From Polynucleobacter sp. JS-JIR-II-b4 (lineage in GTDB: Bacteria; Pseudomonadota; Gammaproteobacteria; Burkholderiales; Burkholderiaceae): a stretch of 64,000 nucleotides of DNA. Under the pieces are notes generated by a model. That model had not been told where the DNA came from and did no database searches. It saw only the letters and a list, made by a program, of their open reading frames with translations. A program made the translations under genes and the position numbers. Below, one piece after another: positions 36,382 to 36,525 of this stretch (positions are counted from its first letter, which is position 1; every line of letters starts with the position of its first letter). The stretch covers positions 930,001 through 994,000 of the forward strand of contig NZ_CP061306.1 of the NCBI RefSeq assembly GCF_018687815.1, given 5' to 3'.

Positions 36382-36525
36382 GTCCATCTCCTAGCTGTTT
36401 TAGATGGACGAAACCGGGTGTCGGTCTGATGTAACTCCCCACGCCAGCATTACCTGGATCGGGTTCTAGGGTCTTTCTCAGCGCCTTCTAGCAAAACTGC
36501 TATGAAGGGCACCCCTGTTTCATCC
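36382..36525 (-). promoter_or_regulatory. TPP riboswitch (THI element) with readable expression platform
   Basis: On the minus strand the aptamer has the hallmarks GGGGTGCCC, CTGAGA, ACCC, GATCCAGGTAATGCTGGCG and GTGGGGAGTTA (about 36521-36428). Canonical P1: GATGAAAC (36524-36517) pairs with GTTACATC (36435-36428), one mismatch. Alternative: GGATGAAAC (36525-36517) pairs with GTTTCGTCC (36414-36406), nine pairs with one G-U. The anti-SD hairpin pairs GTCCATCT (36409-36402) with AGATGGAC (36389-36382), trapping part of AGGAG. The alternative helix and the anti-SD helix share four bases, so TPP binding should close the ribosome site. Confidence 0.95.

Follow-up and report, generated by a model that had tools for sequence, protein, structure and literature searches.

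The thiC leader in the window (here the whole 64,000-nt stretch analysed, G000:C1:930001-994000) raises the question of how TPP would control the genes behind it, and at what moment that decision would be taken. Positions 36526-36419 on the minus strand match the Rfam TPP riboswitch family RF00059 (cmscan; 60.7 bits against a gathering score of 54.3, E 2e-09, model positions 1-105), and this is the single TPP match in the whole 2.02-Mb one-contig genome of this Polynucleobacter-type freshwater bacterium. The reading that we consider probable is that of a TPP-sensing OFF riboswitch which controls the translation of thiC, and probably that of the genes behind it as well, and whose outcome is decided mostly while the leader is being transcribed. 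By Pfam domains and position, the genes 3' of the aptamer are, in order, thiC, a thiO-like gene, thiS, thiG and a thiE-like gene, which would be transcribed together:

36535..36543, minus strand: extended -10-like element TGGTTAAAT, from the sequence, which would start a transcript just 5' of the P1 5' arm
36419..36526, minus strand: TPP riboswitch aptamer (RF00059, cmscan)
36388..36392, minus strand: Shine-Dalgarno (SD) sequence AGGAG, from the sequence, 6 nt 5' of the ATG at 36381
34441..36381, minus strand: thiC (Pfam PF01964 and PF13667, open reading frame list; start taken as the ATG at 36381)
33269..34417, minus strand: thiO-like FAD oxidoreductase (Pfam DAO, PF01266; the name thiO follows from its cluster position)
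33081..33278, minus strand: thiS (Pfam PF02597)
32241..33059, minus strand: thiG (Pfam PF05690)
31287..32213, minus strand: thiE-like gene with a thiamine monophosphate synthase domain (Pfam PF02581)

Among named contigs, the closest relatives of this ThiC come from Polynucleobacter (91-96% identity), together with one beta-proteobacterium (92%). Its longest open reading frame begins at 36387 with an ATG directly behind the SD, and the ATG at 36381 follows AGGAG after 6 nt; an annotation by longest frame (start 36387) would be two codons too long, the likely start being 36381. As assigned, the thiC start codon is GTG in 9 of 124 leaders of the genus. A consensus scan of 36300-36700 returned no sigma-70-type promoter. 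In 113 of the 124 genus leaders, TGnTTAAA(T/G) occurs at a distance of 7-10 nt upstream of the P1 5' arm, and we infer a putative promoter and transcription start of the thiC leader at TGGTTAAAT. Beyond the end of the thi cluster, on the opposite strand, is a thiD-like gene with a phosphomethylpyrimidine kinase domain (29591-30475, plus strand), and no TPP match occurs near it within the window.

Competing helices in the leader

Six segments of the leader take part in the predicted switch:

36517..36525, minus strand: P1 5' arm, which is also the anti-P1 5' arm, GGATGAAAC; identical in 121 of 125 genus leaders
36428..36435, minus strand: P1 3' arm GTTACATC; 7 pairs and an A·A mismatch with 36524-36517
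36411..36427, minus strand: hairpin H from folding, AGACCG (36427-36422) with CGGTTT (36416-36411), loop of 5
36406..36414, minus strand: anti-P1 3' arm GTTTCGTCC; 9 pairs with 36525-36517
36402..36409, minus strand: sequestor left arm GTCCATCT; 8 pairs with 36389-36382, positions 36409-36406 being common to anti-P1
36382..36389, minus strand: sequestor right arm AGATGGAC; end of the SD plus spacer

P1, anti-P1 and the sequestor exclude one another in the manner that such a switch requires. As an isolated duplex, P1 is worth -3.4 kcal/mol (7 pairs, one A·A mismatch), anti-P1 reaches -10.8 kcal/mol (9 pairs including one U·G), and the sequestor hairpin reaches -11.0 kcal/mol (8 pairs). Of the SD, the sequestor takes in only the final two bases; it also includes the 6-base spacer and stops beside the ATG at 36381. 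The preliminary description, which had a hairpin covering part of the thiC ribosome site, is borne out; it had also placed all five arms of P1, anti-P1 and the sequestor correctly, including the four-base overlap of anti-P1 with the sequestor at 36409-36406. Blocking of the ribosome site by this hairpin is, by its predicted structure, partial, because the AGG bases of the SD stay in the sequestor loop in the OFF state.

The match between GTTTCGTCC and the P1 5' arm is, judged from sequence, beyond chance, since 0 of 2000 dinucleotide-preserving shuffles of the platform matched the real partner of the 5' arm (-12.5 observed; -10.4 for the best shuffle) and GTTTCGTCC is carried by 114 of the 125 genus leaders. 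The fold stability of the real platform was reached by 3 of 500 shuffles.

Relation to known TPP riboswitches

By sequence and predicted structure, the window leader belongs with the TPP riboswitches of the E. coli thiC type. Like that system, it has a TPP aptamer before thiC and the same three stems, which in E. coli are P1, an anti-P1 that excludes both P1 and the stem at the ribosome-binding site (RBS), and the RBS stem itself; the same report aligned 77 proteobacterial leaders for the ON structure (PMC5234074). It differs in having arm sequences of its own, on a platform of 40 nt from the P1 3' arm to the end of the SD. In E. coli, anti-P1 is reported to be the favoured form while the complex is stalled at the start region and not to predominate in the full-length RNA free of TPP (PMC5234074). 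The E. coli tbpA (thiBPQ) riboswitch precedes a different gene, and its anti-P1, which gives access to the RBS without TPP and closes the sensing window under kinetic control of a translational switch (PMC8609307), follows a logic similar to that of the window leader, the latter being known from sequence and folding. An antisequestor logic is described for translational riboswitches generally (PMC2258182). In Neisseria meningitidis thiC, TPP is reported to shift P1 and so to free the 5' branch of a downstream hairpin, the output being an intrinsic terminator followed by uridines (PMC7237195), unlike the window, whose minus strand holds no intrinsic terminator-like site between 36300 and 36700. 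The available parts of PMC13273304 and PMC3766115 contain nothing decisive for the reading of this leader, and TPP is absent from the main text of PMC8632094, a paper that mentions both Polynucleobacter and riboswitches.

The switching logic is already published for E. coli thiC and tbpA in the reports cited above, and the window leader leaves the understanding of how such switches work unchanged. What it offers is a compact, well-conserved thiC switch whose platform of about 50 nt is legible by eye; many species of the genus have been sequenced. Because the switch is compact and conserved and the genus is much sequenced, its leaders lend themselves, as a natural series, to studies of how the response to TPP depends on the strengths of P1, anti-P1, hairpin H and the sequestor.

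Modelled folding order and energy balance

Growing transcripts (prefixes) of the window leader were folded at 37 °C and 20 °C with energies that omit tertiary contacts, Mg2+, TPP and polymerase pausing. At 37 °C, the probability of P1 stays at or above 0.95 until the 3' end reaches 36410 and is 0.75 at 36408; anti-P1 then takes over with at least 0.97 for 3' ends from 36406 to 36384, and the combination of P1, H and sequestor exceeds 0.93 for 3' ends from 36382 to 36370. The order at 20 °C is identical, with the final turn one base earlier. Over this course, G(OFF)-G(ON) drops from +6.4 at 36398 to -3.5 kcal/mol at 36379, and from there up to 36345 OFF is preferred without ligand, by 2.4-3.5 kcal/mol at 37 °C and by 3.4-5.5 kcal/mol at 20 °C. 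Longer coding sequence weakens this preference: at 37 °C, anti-P1 reaches 0.48 for the 3' end at 36320 and 0.70 for that at 36300, the corresponding values at 20 °C being 0.14 and 0.26. Once 60-160 nt of thiC have been added, the two states come out roughly level: for seven 3' ends from 36330 to 36220 (six plus 36310), the difference at 37 °C lies between -1.5 and +1.0 kcal/mol. The earlier claim that the 5' arm pairs downstream without TPP does not simply follow from these folds: anti-P1 wins for 3' ends from about 36406 to 36384, the leader made up to the start codon is predicted to prefer OFF by 3.5 kcal/mol, and more coding sequence brings a near balance.

Across the genus, anti-P1 exceeds 0.5 just before the right arm of the sequestor is made in all 124 leaders. 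In this bare-energy model the first stage (P1 above 0.5) is seen in 64 of the 124 and all stages jointly in 54; at the last stage, P1 is above 0.5 in 62 leaders and anti-P1 in 61. Once the start codon has been made, the median G(OFF)-G(ON) among the 67 canonical unique leaders is -0.36 kcal/mol, with 46 of them within 3 kcal/mol and 29 favouring ON. In every one of these 67 leaders, modelled pairing of the 11 nt 5' of the start codon is lower in ON (median 0.33) than in OFF (median 0.74). Without constraints, the ensemble of 107 of 124 leaders has the SD and spacer more than half paired, and many of these leaders also form anti-P1. A bound-aptamer model, in which the Rfam pairs were imposed with a bonus of 3 kcal/mol, gave probabilities of zero, the imposed pairs being unfavourable; it showed no ligand effect and is uninformative. 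The five leaders that most strongly favour OFF (L180, L181, L183, L199 and L215) all have GTG in place of the window's ATG.

Probable level and timing of control

The pattern of a translational OFF riboswitch is present in the window: an 8-bp hairpin lies over the SD and start region, with the SD partly covered, and the terminator search of the minus strand described above was negative. So is the pattern of an anti-P1 of the E. coli thiC type, in that the P1 5' arm can pair alternatively with a segment that the sequestor also needs. The translational OFF switch with three mutually exclusive helices proposed in the preliminary description agrees with the published E. coli thiC model; it is conserved in the genus, and the start region is less paired in ON throughout the canonical leaders. 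We take a decision during transcription to be the likelier course because E. coli thiC is reported to work in this way (PMC5234074). The aptamer and P1 would form first and could then bind TPP. When 36406 has been made and freed, the 5' arm would shift to its better partner, GTTTCGTCC, unless TPP holds P1; when 36382 becomes available, hairpin H and the sequestor together could retake GTTTCGTCC. RNAs in which TPP holds P1 would have their spacer and SD end covered and be poorly translated, and RNAs with anti-P1, in what would amount to a kinetic trap, would keep a more open start region in which a ribosome could catch them.

Transcription might instead be the main output, with TPP binding leading to Rho-dependent termination near the start codon, as has been reported for E. 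coli thiC, and the block of translation serving as the trigger or following as a side effect. We consider this rather unlikely. Several thi genes do lie downstream, translation and transcription are reported to be coupled in E. coli thiC (PMC5234074), and the thiC TPP riboswitch of N. meningitidis drives an intrinsic terminator (PMC7237195), whereas the minus strand of the window carries no site of the latter kind in the interval searched.

A plain equilibrium switch, in which the 5' arm pairs downstream without TPP and within P1 with it, whatever the timing, strikes us as unlikely. The canonical leaders as a set are poised near zero, with the 29 noted above favouring ON once the start codon has been made, and where 60-160 nt of coding sequence make the states of the window leader about equal, TPP binding worth a few kcal/mol could shift the balance. 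Against this stand the ligand-free preference of the window for OFF up to 36345 and the reports of a decision during transcription for E. coli thiC (PMC5234074) and tbpA (PMC8609307). For the leader up to 36345, where OFF wins without ligand, we judged the equilibrium reading insufficient, while noting the near equality of the states with more coding sequence. Our preferred reading remains that of translational control settled mostly during transcription of the leader.

Predicted contribution of hairpin H

Hairpin H, which alone is worth -5.7 kcal/mol, occupies the first four bases of GTTTCGTCC, so that in the OFF state this arm is divided, with GTCC going to the sequestor and GTTT to hairpin H. 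Of the 67 canonical unique leaders, 66 keep at least four pairs of H when folded in OFF; by eye, its stem changes little among leaders and its loop differs in sequence and length. OFF is favoured in 38 of these 67 leaders and in only 3 once hairpin H is forbidden. For the window, forbidding H brings G(OFF)-G(ON) to +1.9 kcal/mol at 36379 (-3.5 with H), to 0.0 at 36370 (-3.1 with H) and to +1.9 at 36345 (-2.4 with H). The OFF edge is lost without hairpin H, and therefore, in the model, both H and the sequestor are required to outweigh anti-P1. The preliminary description had called the logic complete and had presented it as a three-way contest for one short arm, an account that has to be revised, as GTTTCGTCC is contested too and hairpin H, whose removal turns an OFF edge of -3.5 to -2.4 kcal/mol into 0.0 to +1.9 kcal/mol, had been missed.

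These results could be extended to a relay of four helices, which we put forward tentatively and with more doubt than conviction. Here GTTTCGTCC would be reclaimed by H in its 5' half and by the sequestor in its 3' half; H, which can form before the SD exists, would act as a pre-set lever that sets the duration of the ON state, and the leaders of the genus might be tuned near balance through the strengths of P1 and H.

Conservation and covariation within the genus

A TPP match is present in 144 of the 151 genomes of the genus; 133 matches are anchored as the thiC-leader type and 12, from 11 genomes, belong to another type. Counted over the 125 genus thiC leaders that passed our filters, GGATGAAAC is found in 121 and GTTTCGTCC, as noted above, in 114. 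The perfect P1 partner, GTTTCATC, occurs as an 8-mer after the aptamer core in none of the 125; L193, with GTTTTATC, pairs along the whole of P1 with one G·U included. In a few of the divergent leaders both arms have changed together, L222 having GAATGAAAC with TTCATTC, and L002 and L003 having AGATAAAAC and GGATAAAAC with GTTTATC. Of the 12 leaders with a changed arm or lacking GTTTCGTCC, 9 offer the 5' arm a partner better than that in 95% of shuffles; the three that fail are L003, L026 and L028, of which the last two retain thiC but have a weak anti-P1.

With placements chosen for pairing, 3 of 78 unique leaders show two-sided changes in anti-P1, which affect pairs 1, 2 and 5. On a MAFFT alignment of these 78 unique rows, 92.0% of anti-P1 cells are paired versus 33-65% in slid versions, and two-sided changes occur at 0 of the 9 pairs, with no excess over shuffles. 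For P1, H and the sequestor together, the MAFFT alignment gives two-sided changes at 7 pairs and 20 cells, values reached by 4 and 0 of 500 shuffles, respectively; a slide of +2 scored higher, with 10 pairs and 25 cells, and we dropped these changes as proof of covariation because this control exceeded the real count. Conservation of the arms is strong, and covariation, which the preliminary description had named as a check, is suggestive at best: the arms are kept across relatives, but compensatory changes in anti-P1 are few.

Leaders outside the genus and other TPP elements

In a wider test, we considered 96 candidate thiC loci, dropped 23 (no TPP match, P2, start or SD by the rules used) and tested 73. 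The best partner of the 5' arm lies at or below 5% of shuffles in 19 of the 73, and an overlap of at least 2 nt with the partner of the SD region is found in 23. The two features coincide in 11 leaders, namely the testable ones of the GGATGAAAC type, and in none of the remaining 62. The test is crude for long platforms (Serratia L104 gives p 0.065 with an overlap of 8) and neither confirms nor denies the wider claim of PMC5234074.

Outside the genus, thiC leaders of the GGATGAAAC type are L040 (Cupriavidus), L231, L235, L236, L237, L247, L248, L250 and L252-L255. In the 11 testable ones, the best arm partner contains GTTTCGTCC and outdoes every one of 200 shuffles; it shares 7-10 nt with the partner of the SD region. 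They resemble the window in carrying GGATGAAAC and GTTTCGTCC, with GTTTCGTCC pairing also with the SD region, and differ from it in that the SD-side partner starts with GGACGA instead of AGATGGAC and that the platform is longer. The pattern GAAACAGGGGTGC...CTGAGA was found in 19 of 399 genomes of the order and in 4 of 158 genera; on these sequence counts, the GGATGAAAC-type leader is a narrow type.

It would also be conceivable that hairpin H and the SD hairpin alone account for the conservation of GTTTCGTCC, whose match to the P1 5' arm would be a by-product, with anti-P1 irrelevant, and the rarity of two-sided changes in anti-P1, which rest on placements chosen for pairing, the retention of thiC in L026 and L028 and the anti-P1 of L003, no better than shuffles, would fit this; we nevertheless regard it as very improbable, given a 9-pair match equalled by none of the 2000 shuffles, the joint change of both arms in L222 and in L002/L003, and the persistence of the arm in the non-genus leaders though its SD partner differs.

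The 12 matches of the other type (L004-L011, L013, L014, L112 and L172), in 11 genomes of the genus, represent a different TPP riboswitch. The one at L007 precedes a gene with a TonB-dependent receptor plug domain (L007:1635-3098), and by eye the genes after the remaining ones have an N-terminus similar to that of the L007 gene. Because none of these 11 genomes, three of which are 80-86% complete, gave a ThiC match, we suggest that uptake of thiamin or of a precursor replaces synthesis in them.

In the one-contig genome that includes G102:C1:1493254-1494287, which has no TPP match, thiC consists of fragments with stops. For L225 and L256 (G105), the TPP match is, at 47.1 bits, the weakest among those listed for the genus; all sequence from the anti-P1 arm through the thiC start is missing there, and thiC lies in pieces with frame breaks.
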